The position numbers were made by a program, and so were the translations under genes. From positions 4,591 to 41,191 of the forward strand of contig JAAHGL010000051.1 in the NCBI GenBank assembly GCA_010692635.1: a DNA stretch of 36,601 nt, in the 5' to 3' direction. The notes under the pieces are model-generated. The model was not told where the DNA came from, made no database searches, and worked only from the letters and a program-made list of their open reading frames with translations. Positions 1 through 16,941 of this stretch are shown one piece after another. Origin of the DNA: Symploca sp. SIO2C1 (GTDB lineage: Bacteria; Cyanobacteriota; Cyanobacteriia; Cyanobacteriales; Coleofasciculaceae). How positions within the stretch are numbered: position 1 is the stretch's first letter; every line of letters starts with the position of its first letter.

Positions 1-96
1 AGTAAGACTCTAATATCCGGATAAATTACTACTGAATTAATTAATAACCTGTGGTCTTATTTTTCTTTAATAAAATGAAACTGGAGTTATTGAAGG

Positions 97-156
97 AAAA
101 ATTAAAACCCCCAAACTCTAGGAGCAGGGGGTCAATTATCAGGGTGCATCTACCAC
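97..156 (-). ncRNA. NsiR1-like small RNA, copy 1
   Basis: Read on the minus strand, the unit gives a roughly 60 nt RNA: a conserved 5' part (GTGGTAGATGCACCCTGATA), then a hairpin with a CCCCC/GGGGG stem around CTCCTAGAG, then TTTTAATTTTT, which is a Rho-independent terminator. A TCCGGA box (185-190) lies about 30-35 nt upstream of the inferred 5' end, with a TAAGAA -10-like element between. TCCGGA near -35 is the DIF+ motif of heterocyst-specific promoters, and NsiR1 is known as a tandem array of about 60 nt RNAs near hetF. Identity with NsiR1 is inferred from architecture. Ends are estimates. Confidence 0.6.
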
Positions 157-265
157 TTCTTTCTTCTTAAGTAAGACTCTAATATCCGGATAAATTACTA
201 CTGAATTAATTAATAACCTGTGGTCTTATTTTTCTTTAATAAAATGAAACTGGAGTTATTGAAGG

Positions 266-325
266 AAAAATTAAAACCCCCAAACTCTAGGAGCAGGGGG
301 TCAATTATCAGGGTGCATCTACCAC
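266..325 (-). ncRNA. NsiR1-like small RNA, copy 2
   Basis: Same as copy 1, with its TCCGGA box at 354-359 in the next unit. The sequence of the transcribed part appears identical to copy 1, suggesting recent amplification or homogenisation. Confidence 0.6.
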
Positions 326-434
326 TTCTTTCTTCTTAAGTAAGACTCTAATATCCGGATAAATTACTACTGAATTAATTAATAACCTGTGGTCTTATTT
401 TTCTTTAATAAAATGAAACTGGAGTTATTGAAGG

Positions 435-494
435 AAAAATTAAAACCCCCAAACTCTAGGAGTTGGGGGTCAATTATCAGGGTGCATCTACTAC
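435..494 (-). ncRNA. NsiR1-like small RNA, copy 3
   Basis: Same layout, with its TCCGGA box at 523-528. The hairpin differs: + strand GAGTTGGGGG instead of GAGCAGGGGG. This lengthens the pairing with CCCCCAA, so the change keeps or improves the stem. Confidence 0.58.
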
Positions 495-603
495 TGCTTT
501 CTTCTTAAGTAAGACTCTAGTATCCGGATAAATTATTGCTGAATTAATGAATAACCTGTGGTCGTGTTTTTCTTTGATAAAACCGAATTACAGCTATTGA
601 AGC

Positions 604-664
604 TAAAATTAAAAACCCCCAAGCTCTTAGAGCTGGAGGTTAATTATCAGGGTGCATCTACTAC
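604..664 (-). ncRNA. NsiR1-like small RNA, copy 4 (diverged)
   Basis: This is the most diverged unit, with its TCCGGA box at 693-698 in the partial fifth unit. The stem here uses CCCCCAAGCTC against GAGCTGGAGG on the + strand. Several bases have changed on both sides relative to copies 1-3, yet the hairpin and the minus-strand T-run are kept, while the 5' segment (GATGCACCCTGATAATT) is unchanged. That pattern argues for selection on an RNA. Confidence 0.55.
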
Positions 665-692
665 TGCTTTCTTCTTAAGTAAGACTCTAGTA

Positions 693-698
693 TCCGGA
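693..698 (-). promoter_or_regulatory. TCCGGA (DIF-like) box for the outermost sRNA copy
   Basis: The partial fifth unit keeps only the first 27 bp of the repeat, and this is exactly the part with TATCCGGATA. It therefore looks retained as the promoter of copy 4. The equivalent boxes of the other copies are at 185-190, 354-359 and 523-528; another at 16-21 would serve a copy left of the window. Confidence 0.5.
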
Positions 699-827
699 TA
701 AATTGATGGCGGCAGCTCCTCCATCTGTTAACTGAGCAGTTTGTCGGGGAACCAAAGTAATAACCACACTCACCTAGTCCTGTGTTAAATTGACTCCAAG
801 AATGGGTGGAGGAGCAAAGTACCAGTT

Positions 828-1556
828 ATGGTGACACAGGATAAGCAAAGAGAAATTGCTTTCTTTGATAGCTACGCAGAGTCCCAAGAATATAATGTCT
901 TTACGGATAAGAGCAATCTCAAGATAGTCAACAGCTGTCTGGAATTTAGTGGTCTGCAACCAGGAATGCGAGTGGTAGATTGTGGTTGTGGTTCGGGTAT
1001 TTTTACCAAGCTAGTAGACAACCAGGGATTTTTAGCTTCTGGGTTGGATTTGAGCCAGGGATTAATTGAACTAGCGGGACGCACTTATCCAGAAATAGAG
1101 TTTATTGTGGGGGATGTCGAAAACTTACCTTTTGACTCGGAAAGTCTGGATGGAGTTCTACTCAGCGGCATTATCCATCATTTACCAGATCCTAGCAAAT
1201 GTGCTAGTGAGGTTTTCCGGGTACTCAAACCAAACGGCGTCTTTGTTGCCTTTGATCCTAACCGCTTGAACCCCTTTATGTGGCTTTATCGCGATCGCAC
1301 CTCTCCCTTCTATAGTAGTGAGGGGGTAACAGAGAATGAGCGTCCGATTATTGCCTCAGAAATTGCCCAAGTTTTTACCCAGGCTGGTTTTAAAGTTACC
1401 TCTAGCTATCTATCAGGCTTACACTACCGTTATATTGCTTCCTCAAGTTTGCGTTGGGCACTGCCAATTTATAATTTTTTGGACAATGCAGTATTTCGGC
1501 TACCATTTTTGAAACCTTATAGTGCGTTCGTGCTGACTAGAGGAATGAAAGAATGA
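828..1556 (+). CDS. Class I SAM-dependent methyltransferase (Methyltransf_11 type)
   Basis: This is a 242-residue cytosolic methyltransferase. Motif I is the glycine-rich VVDCGCGSGIF near residue 49. The acidic residue after strand beta2 lies in SGLDLSQGLIELA, and the post-I motif region VGDVENLPF precedes LSGIIHHLPDPSKCASEVFRVLKP, typical of UbiE/Methyltransf_11 proteins. The C-terminal third (YRDRTSPFYSS onward) lacks a known substrate signature, so the acceptor is unknown. A GGAGGAG at 808-814 is a somewhat distant ribosome binding site. The gene stands alone, pointing away from the small-RNA array and convergent with hslO. Methyltransferase activity is secure from the fold; the substrate is not. 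Confidence 0.88.
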   Translation: MVTQDKQREIAFFDSYAESQEYNVFTDKSNLKIVNSCLEFSGLQPGMRVVDCGCGSGIFTKLVDNQGFLASGLDLSQGLIELAGRTYPEIEFIVGDVENLPFDSESLDGVLLSGIIHHLPDPSKCASEVFRVLKPNGVFVAFDPNRLNPFMWLYRDRTSPFYSSEGVTENERPIIASEIAQVFTQAGFKVTSSYLSGLHYRYIASSSLRWALPIYNFLDNAVFRLPFLKPYSAFVLTRGMKE

Positions 1557-2735: not shown

Positions 2736-3503
2736 TTGGGAAAGTGTCCCATATGTCAAACACCATATATTGATAAGCAGGTGGTTAGTTGTAGAACCTG
2801 TGCCTGGGATTTGATGCAATACCCCCTAACTCTCGAAGGTGTTTGTTTAGATAAACAAGCGAAGCTTACTTGGGCGAAGCAAATGTGGACAAGATTTCAA
2901 GAAAAGAGTAAGCAGCCTGCAATATCTTTACCGACAGGCCATATTGTGTCTACAGGTGGTAGAGAGTATACCTATTTGTGGGAACTACTTAGTGCTAGGA
3001 AGTGGGAGAGTGCAAACCACATGACTAGAGTGCTTATGCTTAGATTGATTGGACGTGACGAAGAAGGAGAAGATTATTTTGACCAAAGAGCTAGTGAAAA
3101 CTTTTCAGGTTCTGACTTAAAGATTATTGATCAGCTTTGGACAGAATACAGTGGTGGTCATTTTGGCTTTAGTATACAAAAAAAAATTGCTTTTGAGATT
3201 AGTAAAATTCAATCACACTCACCACATAATATTATTGACTCCATTGTTCGAGCATCTGGGAATATATATCGTCTTCAGCAGGAGAGCAATTTTCTTCTTC
3301 AGTGGGAACGAGAATTTGCGAAACAAGTGGGTTGGGAAACAGAACTTGTCTATGATTTAAAGCAACCAAAAGGGCATTTACCATGTATTAAGAGAAAGTT
3401 GACTTATCCACAGCACTTAATGCCTAAAGCTGCAATTATAGCTGCAAGGAATATAGAGCGTATTGCAGGACTATATGAATTACTAATGCGTGAAGAGTTA
3501 TAA
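2736..3503 (+). CDS. Zinc-ribbon / GUN4 domain protein
   Basis: A 255-residue protein starting at TTG. Residues 1-30 form a CxxC...CxxC zinc-ribbon-like knuckle (C4, C7, C19, C22). Residues from about 77 on match GUN4: LLSARKWESANHMTRVLML, then DLKIIDQLWTEYSGGHFGFSIQ and a GW element near residue 205. GUN4 domains bind porphyrins; the canonical Gun4 stimulates magnesium chelatase. This protein, like many cyanobacterial GUN4 paralogues, has a fused extra domain, so it is more likely a tetrapyrrole sensor or scaffold than the chelatase partner itself. The start has only a weak SD; no in-frame ATG precedes the zinc knuckle, which supports the TTG. It stands alone. Confidence 0.85.
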   Translation: MGKCPICQTPYIDKQVVSCRTCAWDLMQYPLTLEGVCLDKQAKLTWAKQMWTRFQEKSKQPAISLPTGHIVSTGGREYTYLWELLSARKWESANHMTRVLMLRLIGRDEEGEDYFDQRASENFSGSDLKIIDQLWTEYSGGHFGFSIQKKIAFEISKIQSHSPHNIIDSIVRASGNIYRLQQESNFLLQWEREFAKQVGWETELVYDLKQPKGHLPCIKRKLTYPQHLMPKAAIIAARNIERIAGLYELLMREEL

Positions 3504-3666
3504 AATTAACCTCTAGTTGTACAGCATATCCACCTTAATACAACAAAAGAGCGATCGCAATTTAAGCGGTAATATTCTGCCATAGAGAGTATTAAACTGT
3601 ACCTGGCGTACAATTATAAATTGAGCTGCAAACTGTCCTAAATACAATTAGACTTGATGAAATAAG

Positions 3667-3795
3667 TAAGTAGGTGAAAAAAAACGATCATTGGATTTGT
3701 AGGGGCGGGTTTAGCTAAGATGCTTGCTACGTGTACTGTTTCTCTCCTTCAAAACCCGCCCTGCCCATGTGAGTTTATTTATGCCCACCTACTTA
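3667..3795. repeat. MITE-like inverted-repeat element with GGGCGGGTTT core
   Basis: The outer 10-bp inverted repeats TAAGTAGGTG (3667-3676) and CACCTACTTA (3786-3795) enclose a second inverted pair, AGGGGCGGGTTTA (about 3701) and CAAAACCCGCCCT (about 3751). It is a fold-back element with no coding capacity. A related core is at 31137-31203. It fills most of the 300-bp gap between the GUN4 gene and the DUF1993 gene and may supply the latter's leader. Confidence 0.7.
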
Positions 3796-3814
3796 AATCT
3801 TGAGGGATTATGAA

Positions 3815-4327
3815 ATGCCAAGTCGGAATATCGGTTTAATCCAAACTCTTTTTCAAAGCCGCTTAACCACACTTGAGCACCTCTTGAAGTCAGCTCAAAC
3901 ACATTTTGGCGATAGTGAGTCGTTCCTTCAGAAGCGCATTGCGGCTGATATGCTTCCCTTCGGTACACAGATTGCTTTCACCTGTGATCAACCACACAAC
4001 TTTGTTCTCTGGTGTGACGGCAAACCAGCGAATCATCTCGATCCAGACGTTACATCTCTCACGCAGGCATACGAACACATAGAAAACACTAAGGGACTTC
4101 TTTCGGGTATTAACGTAGAAGACGCAAAACTAGATGAGGTTACGCGCATCGACTTAGGTAAAAGTCTTTACGTTGAGCTATCTGGTAGTGCCTATGTGAA
4201 TGACTTTCTGATCCCAAATTTCTACTTCCATATGGTCACAGCTTACGACATTCTGCGCATGGCTGGTGTGCCAATTGGTAAACGGGATTACATGATGCAC
4301 TTGGTGCCATTACTCAGAACTGAATGA
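3815..4327 (+). CDS. DUF1993 family protein
   Basis: 170 residues from the ATG at 3815, preceded by GAGGGA at a good SD distance; an in-frame TTG at 3800 would add five residues and is less likely. The protein resembles DUF1993, a helical-bundle family related to DinB-like proteins: a helical N-terminus (LIQTLFQSRLTTLEHLLKSA), a central ADMLPFGTQIAFTCD, and the C-terminal PNFYFHMVTAYDILRMAGVPIGKRDYM. No catalytic role is established for the family. Its start lies 20 bp beyond the inverted-repeat element. It ends just before a TnpB right-end relic. Confidence 0.8.
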   Translation: MPSRNIGLIQTLFQSRLTTLEHLLKSAQTHFGDSESFLQKRIAADMLPFGTQIAFTCDQPHNFVLWCDGKPANHLDPDVTSLTQAYEHIENTKGLLSGINVEDAKLDEVTRIDLGKSLYVELSGSAYVNDFLIPNFYFHMVTAYDILRMAGVPIGKRDYMMHLVPLLRTE

Positions 4328-4523: not shown

Positions 4524-5261
4524 GTGAGTGACGTCTTGAGTTTGCTGTCCTCTCAACTTATGACAACAGAAGCCACCCCCTCTCCTACCAGCACTATTAA
4601 ACTTGAACCCACCTGGAAAGCAGTTCTGGAAGATGTGTTTGCCACCCCCAACATGCAGGCACTGAAACAATTTTTAAAGGCGGAAAAAGCTGCTGGCAAA
4701 ATTATTTATCCCCGTGGCTCACTGATTTTCAATGCCATGAACAGCACACCGTTTGACCAAGTCAAAGTTGTCATTCTTGGACAAGACCCGTATCATGGTC
4801 CGGGTCAATCCCATGGTTTGTGCTTTTCCGTCCCGGAGGGAGTTGCCCCGCCTCCTTCCCTGCTCAATATTTTCAAAGAAATTGAACAAGACTTGGGCAT
4901 TAAACTACCCAAGCATGGCTGCCTGCAAGGCTGGGCAGATCAAGGAGTATTACTGCTCAACAGTGTACTAACAGTGGAACAACATAAAGCCGCCTCCCAT
5001 AAGGGAAAAGGCTGGGAGCAATTTACAGATACCATTATCAGTGCCTTAAACCAGCAACGAAAAAATCTAGTTTTTCTGCTGTGGGGCACTTATGCACAAC
5101 AAAAAGGAAAATTTATTGATCGTGAACGGCATCTAGTGCTTACCTCGCCCCACCCTTCGCCGCTATCCGCGCATCGTGGTTTCTTTGGCAACCGGCATTT
5201 TTCAAAAGCCAATGCGTATTTGCAAAAAAATGATATTGAGCCAATTTCTTGGTCGCTATAA
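4524..5261 (+). CDS. ung: Uracil-DNA glycosylase, family 1
   Basis: A 245-residue base-excision repair enzyme that removes uracil from DNA. The water-activating motif [13 protein letters not shown] (residues 86-98, catalytic Asp near 88) and the DNA-intercalating [13 protein letters not shown] motif (from about 210) are intact, and length fits the family. The start is uncertain: GTG at 4524, or ATG at 4560, which drops twelve poorly conserved residues. Neither has a strong SD, and the region upstream is the TnpB right-end relic, so the native leader may have been replaced. It is transcribed alone. Confidence 0.96.
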
Positions 5262-5344: not shown

Positions 5345-8002
5345 ATGCCAGTCAACCTAGATAAGCCACATCTCTGGAAATCAGACTCCCTCCACTCTAT
5401 TGACTTCTACAATGACTGGTTTCTTCGTTTTGCTCCCAGTACTTTCAGAGAACAGAGAGAACTTAAAGCTGAGGAAGTAGCGAATGCCCTGGCAATAACT
5501 GATTATCTTCGAGGAATATCAATTCAGTTACTCAAGAACAACCCTGGCATCTTGCCAATGCTAAGAATGACGACTGCACCTCCGCTAGCACGGGACAGGT
5601 TAATTGGTCTTGCATACACTACCAAAAGTCTAGTGTCTAGCTTAGAGGGATCAGCAAAGTATCCCCCCAGGATTCCGCCGAGAATGCCATCTAATGTATT
5701 GGATGCTCATCTTGAACGTATTATTGACGTCCTGAGAGAAGTTGCAGATCGCGATTTATTCCCTTGGTTAGATGATCCTAATACAGAGCCAACCAAAGAA
5801 GCTCTTTCGCGAAGTGCCTCAGTTGTAGCAGATAGACTATGTGGAGCAGCAGCAGATCCGATTATCAGGAATGCTCAGGAACAGCGCCAACTTAACGCTC
5901 TAGGAGCATTTCTTAAGTCTCATAATTATACTGAAATAGCTTCAAATGATTTGAATAATTTGCTGGCAATGCCACAAGGAAGCTATACATTCAGGTGCAA
6001 TATTTCAGTTGGCTCTGATAAAACTTCAGTAAATATTCCTATCGATTGCATAGTCTCAAGCCATACAAGACAACCAGATGCACTGCCACTTTTAATTGAA
6101 GCTAAATCTGCTGGTGACACAACGAACACCAATAAGAGGAGAAAAGAAGAAGCACAAAAGTTTTCGCAGCTAAAGCGAAAGTTTGGGAATACAGTACCAT
6201 TTCTCTTGTTTTTATGTGGCTATTTTGAACCTGGCTATTTAGGGTATGAGGCTTCTGAGGGGATTGATTGGGTATGGGAGCATAGAATTACTGACCTTCT
6301 TGATTACATAGAGGATAACTCTTCGCTTCTTCCACGTAACTTGGCTCAACAAAACCCTAGTCTATATTCAAGCGATTTCATGCAGCTTGAGGCTGAGCGG
6401 TTTCGTCGGCAGCAGGAAGTAGATAACTCAAAAACTCCCTTAGCAAGGAATCAGCTCGGACAATTCTCGACACCATTTTCGTTGGCACAACAAATCTCTC
6501 GATACACTATTTCACTACTTGCAGTAGGAAGAGAAAGTAGACATCTGCTTGAGCCTGCTATTGGCAGTGGTGTTTTTATCTCCTCAATTATTTCATTAAA
6601 TCCTCAAAATATAACCTATACAGGCGTAGAAATTGACGCCTTATATGCCCAGATATGCGAAGAGCTTTTTTCTGAATTTGGCTGTAATGTTCTCAATCAA
6701 GACTTCTTCTCATTTATTGAATCAGAAGAAAGTCAAGAAAATTTTGATTGTGTTATAACTAATCCACCATATGTTCGCCATCATCACTTCGCATCAGAAA
6801 CCAAGAAGCAATACAAGGAAAAGGTTTTAAGGACTTTAGGAATATCAGTGAGTGGCTTAGCCGGTCTCTATATCTACTATATCCTGCTCTGTGATCAGCT
6901 CTTAAAAGATGGTGCAGTAGCTTCCTGGTTAATACCCAGTGAGTTCCTATATGTAAATTATGGACGTGCACTAAGGGAGTATTTGTATAATTATGTGTCA
7001 CTAATCCGTATCCATCGATTCGATGCCCAAAATGTTCAATTTAATGATGCTTTGGTTTCATCATGTATTATTACCTACAGGAAGCAAAAACCAGCTGCTG
7101 ACTTGCTATTTAGTGTGACAAGAGGGACATATGAAAATCCTGCAATGCACTATGAGATTCCTCGTTCTTCTATTAGCCACAGCGAAAAGTGGAATTTTTC
7201 AGAGTTAGAGCAAGCGGATACTGAAGATGGGATTGCTCTGGAAAAACTTTTTCAGATAACTCGTGGGTTAGCAACGGGGAACAATGATTTTTTTATCTTG
7301 GATCAATGGCGAATCAATGAGAAGAAGATTCCTTCACAATTTTTGGTTCCTGTACTTCCCAGTCCGAGGTATATCAAAAGTTCAGTCATTGAATCAGATG
7401 CGGCTGGAGTCCCACTCCTGACACAGCAAAAGTTTTTACTTTTGGTTACACTGTCTCCCGCAGAGATAAGGTATAAGCATCCAGGTCTTTATCAATACTT
7501 AGAGGAAGGAAAGAAAATAGGTGTCCATAATAGATATCTGTGTCGTACTCGAAAAAGATGGTACTTTCAAGAAAAACGAGAGCCGCCTCTCTTTGTTGCA
7601 ACATATATGGGACGGACTAATTCTAATGGTAATGCTCCGATACGTTTTCTCTTGAACCGCTCTAGAGCGATAGCAACTAACGTGTTTATTTGTCTCTATC
7701 CAAAACCGGAACTTCAGTATTTGCTACAACAAAGTAAAGCAAGAGAGATTGAGCTCCTTGAAACTCTAAACCAAATTCCCATAGCATGTATTCAGAGAGC
7801 TGGAAGAAGTTATGGCGGTGGTCTTCAAAAAATAGAGCCAAAAGAGTTAAGAGCTGTGCGTGTGAAAAATTTGCCTGAATGGCTATCTTTCAAAGAAGTG
7901 GTGCAGCTCGATATGTTTAGTGCTGAGCAGGGATTCTCTTGCTACTTTAGAGGGAGCATCAGTCATAATTACCACGTCGGCAATTTCGATGGCTGCATCT
8001 GA
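5345..8002 (+). CDS. Fused restriction endonuclease (XamI-like) and N6-adenine methyltransferase
   Basis: A single 885-residue restriction-modification protein. The N-terminal part (about 1-340) resembles the XamI endonuclease family (DWFLRFAPSTFREQRELKAEEV; TTAPPLARDRLIGLA). A PD-(D/E)xK-type site is visible as an Asp in IPIDCIVSS and E252-A-K254 in LLIEAKSAGD. The methylase follows: RNQLGQFSTPFSLA, SAM motif I LEPAIGSG (402-409) and catalytic motif IV NPPY (473-476), as in gamma-class N6-adenine methylases. A target-recognition region follows, up to about residue 840. No separate specificity or nuclease gene is nearby. The host would be protected and restricted by one gene product. The recognition site cannot be read. 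Confidence 0.83.
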   Translation: MPVNLDKPHLWKSDSLHSIDFYNDWFLRFAPSTFREQRELKAEEVANALAITDYLRGISIQLLKNNPGILPMLRMTTAPPLARDRLIGLAYTTKSLVSSLEGSAKYPPRIPPRMPSNVLDAHLERIIDVLREVADRDLFPWLDDPNTEPTKEALSRSASVVADRLCGAAADPIIRNAQEQRQLNALGAFLKSHNYTEIASNDLNNLLAMPQGSYTFRCNISVGSDKTSVNIPIDCIVSSHTRQPDALPLLIEAKSAGDTTNTNKRRKEEAQKFSQLKRKFGNTVPFLLFLCGYFEPGYLGYEASEGIDWVWEHRITDLLDYIEDNSSLLPRNLAQQNPSLYSSDFMQLEAERFRRQQEVDNSKTPLARNQLGQFSTPFSLAQQISRYTISLLAVGRESRHLLEPAIGSGVFISSIISLNPQNITYTGVEIDALYAQICEELFSEFGCNVLNQDFFSFIESEESQENFDCVITNPPYVRHHHFASETKKQYKEKVLRTLGISVSGLAGLYIYYILLCDQLLKDGAVASWLIPSEFLYVNYGRALREYLYNYVSLIRIHRFDAQNVQFNDALVSSCIITYRKQKPAADLLFSVTRGTYENPAMHYEIPRSSISHSEKWNFSELEQADTEDGIALEKLFQITRGLATGNNDFFILDQWRINEKKIPSQFLVPVLPSPRYIKSSVIESDAAGVPLLTQQKFLLLVTLSPAEIRYKHPGLYQYLEEGKKIGVHNRYLCRTRKRWYFQEKREPPLFVATYMGRTNSNGNAPIRFLLNRSRAIATNVFICLYPKPELQYLLQQSKAREIELLETLNQIPIACIQRAGRSYGGGLQKIEPKELRAVRVKNLPEWLSFKEVVQLDMFSAEQGFSCYFRGSISHNYHVGNFDGCI

Positions 8003-14325: not shown

Positions 14326-16941
14326 CTAGCCAACCCGTTTTTCTAATTCCTGGGCAACAAAATCAGGAACTTTTACTTCTGTCCCCTTGGCAAGACAACA
14401 ATCCCATACTGCTAAGAGAAAACCTTGAATCGCAACTGGTGCCCCTGGTACAGCAGCTCCCTGAGCAAGGAACTTACGCCACTGTCCTCGACTGTCACCC
14501 CCCAGCTCTAATACATACAAACCAGCAAGATACTCAGCTAAAGGATCTAAGGCGAAGCGAATTCGGTCTTGAGCTGGACCGATCGTTTGGATGAGACGAA
14601 GGCGATCTTCCAAATACTGAAGGCGAGTTTCTGCATCATCTCCATCTAGGGCAGCAAGTGCATCCTTGCGCATAGCAGTACTTGGTCGATAAGTGCTCTT
14701 TAAGCATTGCCAAGCGATCGCTTTGGCATCTTCCTGAACAGAGCGATCATCTAACTTATCTTCTTTCACCTCCTGGTTCAGTTCGTTTAAGTAACTGAGC
14801 ATTAGATCGGGGATATTGTTGGGTAAGGGGGTAATTGTTGTTGTCCCCGCAGCTGCTGCCGTGTTCTCTTTGGCCGCAATTAGTTGTTCGGCATATAACT
14901 TAGCAAGTAAAACCGTAATGTTTCGCGCTCCCACAATCACCGAGAGTCGGCCACAAGCATCAAAAAACTCACTGTCGGTAAAGGCATCCCGCTTCCCCCT
15001 CTGCCTTAAGTAAGCTTCCATGAAAGAAGAGAGCCGATTGCCCTCAATACGCAGAGGCTGGAGAGTCGTCTTAGTAACTTTGCCTAAGGTTTCTTCTGTC
15101 CGTGAAGCGATCGCTAAAGCATTGACACAGAAGTCTGGTAATTCAGGTCGAATGGTTTTACGTGTAGCTTCACTCATTTCCGAGAGATGATCTACTATTA
15201 CCAAAATACGCCGCTGCCTGAGAAGGCGTTCTAACAGTTCCTCGGAAATGGGGTCTGGTTCATTGGTTAAGGCTTGCAACTGTCCTTGAATAGCGGCAAT
15301 GAAGGGTTGTTTGTCTCCTGCTGCTTCACAATCGAGTTCTTCTTCAATTAACAAGGGCAACATCTGGTGTTCACACAGGCGCTCTGCCTCATCTTCAGAG
15401 AAAGCCCACCTGGCAATTTGACAGGCTAAACTCGTCTTTCCTGCTCCCCCTTCACCCCAGATGAGCAAACAGCAGCGCTGTTTATTGAACTTGGAGCGTA
15501 AATCTTTAGCCTTGAGTTGGGGTATAGTTTCACCATCTAAGACAACAGGAACTGGGATATATACGTTGCGATCGCGTACTGTGTCCTTTTGTTGAAATTC
15601 TTCCCTAACTGATTCAATGTGTGCCGCTACCCAGGCATCCAGTACTCTAGGATGGTAATGAAAAAAGCCAACAAACAGGGAAAACCGAATCGGTACACTG
15701 ATACCAATGAAGGGTAGTGGTACGTCTGTGTAAGGTTTGAGGAGATTATTAATCCCCAACAGCCAAAGAGGACGAAGCCACAAAACTCCTAGGCAGAGCA
15801 AGGGAGCAAATACCAAATAACTGATCACTCCCAAAAACCATTTATACTGAAGAACCCATTCCCAGGTTCTATCCAATAAGCGGGCTTCTTTTTCCGCTTG
15901 TAGTGCCAAGAGGGGGCGACGAACTACGGCAATATCTTCTTCTGTAAACTTAGCCTGAGAGTCTTCTACAATTTCTAAAGCTTTCTCTAAATCTGATATT
16001 TCCTTTTCTAACTCCGAGAGGGGTAGTGTCTTTGCCTTATCCAGAAAAGTTCCCGCAATTCTTCCTAATCCGCTAGCCGCATTCTGACGAACTTCCTTCT
16101 TCTCATCTTGCAATGCTTGAATCAGAGCAGGCACTGCCGGTTTTGCTTCCACACCAATTCGCCCCAAAGCGGAAGCCGCATTCAAGCGCACATATTTATT
16201 TTCGTCTTGCAAAGCGGTAATTAGAGCAGGCACTGCCACTTTAGCTTTTGGACCAAATTGTCCTAAAGCATCAGCAGAACTTTGGCGAACGTATTTCTCG
16301 GTGTCCTGTAAAGTAATAGTGAGAGCAGGAACTACTATTGGGGCTTTTGTGCCAATTCGTCCCAAAGCAGTAGCAGCATTCAAGCGAACCTCTGCATGAA
16401 CATCCTGCAAAGCCTTAATAAGTTGAGGAACTGCTGATGAAGCTTCCGGACCGATTTTTCCCAGAGCATAAGTGGCAACTAGACGCAGGTTTCTATCGTT
16501 ATCCTGCAAAGCCTCAATAAGTTGCGGTACTGCTGCTGAGGCTTCTGAACCAATTTTCCCCAAGGCATAGGCGGCAATCCGACGAACATATCCATCCTCA
16601 TCTTGCAATGTATTAATCAAGTTACGGACTGCCGGGGAAGCTTCTGGTCCTATTTCTCCTAGCGCTGAGGCAGCACGCCAACGAACTTGCTTGTTTTCAT
16701 CTTTTAAAGCTTCCATGAGAGCTGGAACTGCTGGCGCGCCAATTTTCACGATTGAATCAGCAGCATCATGACGCACCCGGAAATCATTGTCTGTCAATTT
16801 CTCAATCAAGGGAGCAATCTGTGGATTAGAAGAGGGTTGTGCCCAGCTATTGCCACCCAAAAGCAAAGACAATAAAAGGCAGAGTAGAGCAACCTTCAAC
16901 CCTGCTACTGGGAGAAATTGAGTTCTAATGTACTTAACCAC
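14326..16941 (-). CDS. Membrane HEAT-repeat protein with cytosolic NACHT/STAND-like NTPase
   Basis: 871 residues, GTG start. Residues 12-35 are a signal-anchor-like hydrophobic segment ending NSWAQ. Eight 39-residue HEAT/PBS-lyase-like repeats (about 41-325, core D-E-x-x-x-V-R-x-x-A-A-x-A-L-G-x-I-G) follow, then a helical linker, a hydrophobic pair near 366-395 ([20 protein letters not shown]) and an NTPase. Walker A is [11 protein letters not shown] (K about 502) and Walker B-like [13 protein letters not shown]. The rest is helical and resembles STAND/NACHT ATPase arms. If both hydrophobic segments span the membrane, the repeats face the periplasm and the NTPase the cytosol. Such architecture suggests sensing coupled to a nucleotide switch; function unknown. 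Confidence 0.82.

Follow-up and report, generated by a model that had tools for sequence, protein, structure and literature searches.

The window analysed here is a 36,601-nucleotide stretch of the genome of Symploca sp. SIO2C1 (G000), positions 4591–41191 of contig C418 (G000:C418:4591-41191), in a draft assembly of 470 contigs and 8.17 Mb that is 96% complete. Positions 1–704 are a tandem repeat with a period of 169, 4.2 copies and 94% matches (Tandem Repeats Finder), which contains four complete units of 169–170 bp, all on the minus strand. All four are matches to NsiR1 (RF02399), with cmscan scores of 47.3–51.2 bits where the gathering score is 39, and in 4/4 a TCCGGA begins 35 nt ahead of the RNA 5' end. 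An initial annotation, made from the sequence alone, had described four tandem minus-strand units of this size, each preceded by TCCGGA, and had read them as an NsiR1-type array with DIF boxes; the repeat, the -35 placement of the box and the Rfam check bear this out. The features are as follows.

16–21, minus strand: DIF box TCCGGA of a fifth unit, the RNA of which falls in the 100-N gap that precedes the window (sequence)
100–155, minus strand: NsiR1-family sRNA unit, 5' end at 155 (RF02399 47.7 bits; fold -17.3 kcal/mol)
185–190, minus strand: DIF box TCCGGA, -35 of unit 100–155 (by eye)
269–324, minus strand: NsiR1-family sRNA unit (RF02399 47.7 bits)
354–359, minus strand: DIF box, -35 of unit 269–324 (by eye)
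438–493, minus strand: NsiR1-family sRNA unit (RF02399 47.3 bits)
523–528, minus strand: DIF box, -35 of unit 438–493 (by eye)
609–663, minus strand: NsiR1-family sRNA unit at the outer end, more diverged than the other three (RF02399 51.2 bits)
693–698, minus strand: DIF box, -35 of unit 609–663 (by eye)
828–1556, plus strand: class I SAM methyltransferase, right neighbour, divergent from the array (PF08241, 82.2 bits)

Each of the window units reads as a short RNA gene with a predicted intrinsic terminator comprised of a hairpin and an interrupted T-run. The predicted folds are -17.2 to -17.5 kcal/mol, and the sequence after the hairpin is TTTTAATTTTT in three units and TTTTTAATTTT in the fourth. 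The hairpin had been annotated correctly, while the RNA length of 60 nt had not, the predicted RNAs being 55–56 nt, and the T-run is not continuous. A TANNNT -10 box was not seen by eye in the array promoters, where the sequence is AAGAAGAAAG. The array unit cannot be put down to chance, since TCCGGA-N22-45-GATGCACCCTG is matched 10 times in the Symploca sp. SIO2C1 genome and its reversed control not once in the 340 genomes searched. In three of the four units (window 100–493, minus strand) the seed region ATGCACCCTGATAATTGA forms a five-codon frame, M-H-P-D-N-stop, which is probably accidental.

The window begins directly after a 100-N scaffold gap, and the array extends leftward across it. 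Seven complete units are present on C418 (at 3956, 4125, 4294, 4690, 4859, 5028 and 5199) and one more is cut by the gap, giving an array of at least eight units. In a further C418 unit the seed is separated from its hairpin by an insertion, and a diverged unit lies at C418:3455 (35.8 bits, RF02399). The insertion, of about 160 bp and starting with ATGGATA repeats, splits the unit inside the seed (L009 about 3665–3826; by eye). To the left of the array are map (Peptidase_M24) and then a PAS-guanylate cyclase gene (Pfam), and hetF is on contig C452; this rules out hetF as the left neighbour, which had been suggested initially. The names map, gatB, argJ, chlD, hetR and hetF used here come from translations, with Pfam applied only to the map, cyclase and hetF products and hetR assigned via PF03574. 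Both congeners, G005 and G004, have related DIF arrays next to the same cyclase gene, with no map in between, and in G005 a second array adjoins a chlD-like gene. Inverted copies of about 150 bp flank map (L009 about 2205–2375 and 3263–3420; by eye), as if a segment had been inserted between the array and the cyclase gene.

The array RNAs share the 5' seed GTAGATGCACCCTGAT. The 18-nt seed has 32 matches in the genome at up to 3 mismatches, 16 of them exact, against 4 for the reversed control. More than 20 seed RNAs are present in Symploca sp. SIO2C1 with one of two alternative -35 elements, either a DIF box or a GGGGT-N3-ACCCC palindrome, and all 16 exact seed matches stand behind one or the other. 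TCCGGA is at -34 or -35 of the seeds in the C418 array and on C49, C452 and C1, and TCCTGA is at -35 of those on C132 and C146. The TTCCTGA variant occupies the place of the DIF box before these sibling RNAs (L016 1042, plus strand, C132; L040 1499, plus strand, C146), and is also found upstream of an RGSGR ORF in L251. The palindrome is present without a DIF box on C446 (five units in a 201-bp array), C91, C431, C24 (two) and C443. On C91 the palindrome falls at the contig start and reads TGGGTGACACCCC; this seed is an apparent continuation of the C446 array and possibly its first unit. Seven weak seed matches (2–3 mismatches) have neither element, and C432 and C445 fall outside the promoter reading.

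The palindrome has the sequence GGGGTGACACCCC, with the version GAGGGGTCAGACCCCTC on C443. All 8 GGGGTGACACCCC sites in the 8.17 Mb stand just before a seed. The GGGGTNNNACCCC motif has 33 sites in the genome (control, 3), of which 9 precede a seed (the 8 GGGGTGACACCCC sites and C443) and 24 do not. The palindrome-class RNAs that Rfam listed score below the RF02399 gathering score of 39 (C446 array, 31.2–34 bits; C443, 37.9; C431, 31.4), and the C24 pair is absent from the 150 of 1752 RF02399 candidates that were scored. Because they have the same seed with a different hairpin, and score below gathering, we call these RNAs siblings rather than NsiR1 members; the Rfam threshold misses those scored here. 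Among 14 control genomes, the whole-genome RF02399 search matched one (E. coli), below the cut-off. The C431 sibling (L017 about 4995–5060, plus strand) is near ORFs with replication-initiator-like and ParA-like translations, and is perhaps on a plasmid.

The palindrome resembles the HetR operator described 5' of hetP, GAGGGGTCTAACCCCTC (PMC4192349). HetR has been reported to require GGGn5CCC (PMC4649674), and by motif match this is present near -35 of the palindrome-class seeds as GGG-TGACA-CCC or GGG-TCAGA-CCC. Both the hetP operator and the sibling palindrome are GGG-N5-CCC; the former is ahead of a protein gene, the latter spans roughly -39 to -27 in front of a small RNA gene. Such a motif match is weak proof of HetR binding: when nine predicted HetR sites were put to gel shifts, distinct shifted bands were reported for none but the hetP control (PMC4192349). 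DIF promoters are said there to lack a HetR site (PMC4192349), and in Anabaena the DIF1 promoters have been described as dependent on HetZ, which is itself activated by HetR (PMC7377430).

Palindrome plus seed is present in 20/20 genomes of the host's family and in 147/340 genomes of the order, DIF plus seed in 190/340 of the latter, and the reversed control gives 0 in each case. HetR (PF03574) was detected in 195/340 genomes of the order. At least one promoter-seed pattern is found in 193 of these 195, versus 6 of the 145 without HetR. The two HetR genomes with neither pattern are G047, which carries a bare seed, and G070, which is only in the order sample; the six with a pattern and no detected HetR are G006, G027, G049, G071, G157 and G207. 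A class sample of 195 genomes of at least 90% completeness, 21 of them shared with the order sample, has the 15-mer seed TAGATGCACCCTGAT in 101 genomes (reversed control, 0) and HetR in 98, one of which (G496) is counted by a 31-residue fragment alone. The seed is in 98/98 HetR genomes of this sample versus 3/97 without HetR (G035, G359 and G345, the last with four seed copies). Since HetR is shared by descent, these co-occurrence counts are not independent events, and the Fisher values obtained for the two samples, which take no account of relatedness, do not stand for probabilities. An RNA family that stands near one-to-one with HetR in the sampled genomes would offer a direct readout, and candidate output genes, for the role of HetR, which in filamentous cyanobacteria without heterocysts has been called a mystery (PMC11298460).

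Among the named genomes at least 114 stretches have the palindrome-seed arrangement, with 134 sites among the matches listed. The listed holders include Lyngbya, Leptolyngbya, Microcoleus, Oscillatoria, Spirulina, Okeania, Moorena and Nodosilinea, which are without heterocysts, and the heterocystous Dolichospermum, Anabaena, Calothrix and Scytonema. One match, L188 from Azospirillum, arose by chance: it has 71% GC and a total length of 61, and blastn finds nothing similar to it among the other named stretches. It remains in the counts of listed stretches (114) and sites (134). A terminator-like hairpin with a T-run follows at 131/134 listed sites versus 80/565 random positions in the same loci, and TANNNT is near -10 at 119/134 versus 49/565. 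The total length is 53–56 at 108/134 listed sites, which means that the palindrome occupies roughly -39 to -27, the place of the DIF box in the other class. By blastn, gatB and/or argJ is beside the site in 55 of the 114 listed stretches (49 gatB, 22 argJ, 16 both), a DNA-level count that could be higher at the protein level, and the C24 site of Symploca sp. SIO2C1 is likewise flanked by gatB and/or argJ. An alignment of sequences from gatB/argJ-type loci (A1, with 54 of the 67 extracted; the 13 omitted were mostly extra same-locus copies or close relatives) has a nearly invariant 5' end. Invariance of GATGCACCCTG in it was fixed by construction of the search; A5 and A17 are invariant and G3, T4, T18 and G19 near-invariant without being imposed by it. 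Pairing of the terminator stem is kept, with two-sided changes in 4/6 pairs and a small covariation energy term of -0.53 (54 sequences).

What might the shared seed pair with? The CHAT-domain gene taken as hetF is on contig C452 (L011 6044–8554; Pfam), and a single NsiR1 lies antisense about 180 bp upstream of it (55.1 bits). Of 49 genomes tried, 43 have relatives of hetF at E values up to 1e-60, and 30 loci were read. In the host's family 17/19 hetF loci have an antisense upstream seed with TCCGGA at a fixed distance, and the two without a seed (G003, G010) stop at contig ends. Outside the family 8/11 loci have seeds there, several as arrays; in the other three (G139, G103, G313) none is beside hetF, and hetF therefore cannot be a universal target. 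Seven array or sibling RNAs tested have 16–18 nt identical to the hetF-antisense copy, and the predicted pairing energy of their first 30 nt with the hetF leader is -33 to -41 kcal/mol. The shuffled controls (30 per RNA; means -14 to -20, lowest -26.8) are all weaker than the seven real RNAs. Elsewhere in the window, outside the sRNA units, no complement to the seed of 9 nt or longer was found except one of 9 nt (35410, minus strand). The 9-kb hetR region has 8-nt stretches only, and for that reason hetR is not an obvious seed target. On predicted pairing, the seed RNAs have their strongest candidate target in the hetF leader. In Nostoc PCC 7120, NsiR1.1 is reported to be antisense to hetF and to repress it, and NsiR1.4 to repress alr3234 (PMC9045159). 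The Anabaena hetF transcription start is given as -256, inside nsiR1.2, such that the leader covers nsiR1.1, and changing or removing the nsiR1.1 -10 box is reported to have made little difference to hetF-gfp (PMC8406250).

The initial annotation had also suggested that the organism differentiates heterocysts, and this is not supported. The host's family includes Moorena bouillonii (NZ_MKZS01000001.1; G012), Symploca SIO3C6, Coleofasciculus LEGE 07092 and UBA11153, with matches at 100% identity over 3055 bp for Symploca SIO3C6, 2627 bp for Coleofasciculus LEGE 07092 and 1760 bp for UBA11153; Moorena and Coleofasciculus are in the NCBI order Coleofasciculales. It is well established that Moorena, Symploca and Coleofasciculus form no heterocysts. 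The nifH model has no match above the cut-off in Symploca sp. SIO2C1 or two congeners, the best being about 218 bits versus 394, a level that would be expected of a protochlorophyllide-reductase paralogue, and nifH is above the cut-off in 5/19 genomes of the family. Symploca sp. SIO2C1 appears unable to fix nitrogen and is unlikely to form heterocysts, judging by kinship and by nifH, the one heterocyst gene searched; a heterocystous host was rejected on these grounds. As the NsiR1 array is present in a host with no nifH above the cut-off, whose family includes Moorena, Symploca and Coleofasciculus, NsiR1 is not a safe heterocyst marker, and heterocysts cannot be inferred from an NsiR1 match.

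NsiR1 of Nostoc sp. PCC 7120 is described as 12 copies upstream of hetF that are heterocyst-specific (PMC9045159). The array here is like it in having tandem RNAs of about 60 nt, each copy with its own DIF -35 promoter and terminator hairpin, the same 5' seed as in the Rfam consensus, and a copy, on C452 in this genome, that runs antisense to the hetF leader. Unlike it, the array is apart from hetF, the host appears not to fix nitrogen, and siblings are on many contigs, some with a HetR-type palindrome replacing the DIF box. Limnospira indica PCC 8005 likewise has an NsiR1-like RNA, RNA162, in a strain without heterocysts; it is described as one 57-nt RNA, and the portion of that report consulted does not describe an array, a HetR-palindrome class or a link to HetR genomes (PMC8400943). 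HetR and the RGSGR protein have been reported to predate heterocysts, and the HetR-PatX accounts, as far as consulted, deal with proteins and peptides and name no small RNA as part of the module (PMC7761841, PMC12756182). As in that module, hetR is beside an RGSGR-repeat ORF in Symploca sp. SIO2C1. This ORF, just upstream of hetR (L251 4946–5428, minus strand; about G000:C1:10945-11427), has a translation with a hydrophobic N-terminus and (R)GSGR-LELAQ repeats, and would be a PatX-like protein in which the inhibitory pentapeptide recurs many times. A non-exhaustive survey of partial texts on NsiR1, DIF, the HetR inverted repeat AACCCCTC and PatX found no HetR palindrome ahead of NsiR1-like RNAs. 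The seed letters used as a text string returned no cyanobacterial paper by title, and in the literature matched to NsiR1 plus genus names the word NsiR1 was not found.

The sequence analysis shows which family the units belong to, their promoter elements and terminators, their conservation, the co-occurrence with HetR and the complementarity to the hetF leader; expression of the RNAs, their control by HetR and HetZ in Symploca sp. SIO2C1, repression of hetF and any developmental role are inferred. The array is probably a dosage cluster within a seed-sharing sRNA family whose link is with HetR and not with heterocysts, co-transcribed when HetR is active and repressing leaders including that of hetF. 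Each array copy is by its sequence an NsiR1-family RNA gene with a DIF-box promoter and a terminator of its own. HetR would act through HetZ on the DIF copies and directly on the palindrome copies, so that all copies are transcribed together when HetR is active and the amount of RNA is proportional to copy number. The single-stranded seed would then pair with target leaders and block translation, repressing hetF, the best candidate, and others. We regard the array as a single branch within an ancient sRNA family linked to HetR. We also lean, with less assurance, towards the broader reading that NsiR1 is not a heterocyst invention: throughout the filamentous cyanobacteria, seed sRNAs with a DIF or HetR-operator -35 would be a conserved arm of the HetR regulon, with ancestral gatB-argJ and hetF-antisense copies and arrays that arose more than once, adopted later by the heterocyst formers. 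If this is true, the NsiR1 circuit originates before heterocysts. One published conjecture is that the HetR mechanism first served nonrandom filament breakage via necridia (PMC7761841).

Could the host simply be heterocystous, and the array its regular heterocyst NsiR1 array? The Rfam match, the DIF boxes and the presence of HetR in the genome would fit, but the kinship with Moorena, Symploca and Coleofasciculus, nifH below the cut-off in both this 96% complete genome and the two congeners, and the position of the array away from hetF make this very improbable. That the copy number is an artefact of a short-read draft deserves almost no credence: there is a 100-N gap inside the array, but its units differ in sequence and related arrays are found in G005 and G004. 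Somewhat less remote, and still decidedly unlikely, is that in species without heterocysts the RNAs are functionless inherited leftovers. Function and expression are deduced here from sequence comparison, one unit has diverged (C418:3455) and one is split by an insertion. Leftovers would decay, however, and the conservation of the seed in every HetR genome of the class sample, of pairing in the terminator stems through two-sided changes, of arrays next to that cyclase gene in the two congeners and of the second array beside the chlD-like gene in G005 therefore argues against them.

A further alternative, unlikely in our view and yet the most plausible of these, is that the palindrome class is not controlled by HetR and that GGGGTGACACCCC is a dispersed repeat, a terminator or another regulator's site travelling with the seed. 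HetR binding to the palindrome is predicted from a motif, the palindrome-seed pattern is present without detected HetR in G006, G027, G157 and G207, and GGGGTCATACCCC is a repeat in Symploca sp. SIO2C1 that is often near contig ends. GGGGT and ACCCC, being fixed by the search, prove nothing alone about HetR control. Against this alternative are the narrow range of total lengths (53–56 nt) and the frequent TANNNT near -10 noted above, and the TCA that follows the palindrome at 58/134 listed sites, as in the hetP site GAGGGGTCTAACCCCTCA.

Two other genes of the window may be mentioned. The first (5345–8002, plus strand) encodes an 885-aa fusion of a XamI-type restriction nuclease and an Eco57I-type methylase domain. 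The second (14326–16941, minus strand) encodes a protein of 871 aa that has HEAT repeats and NACHT C-terminal helical domain 4 and weakly matches a NACHT-type ATPase, and 99-bp tandem repeats fall within this gene.
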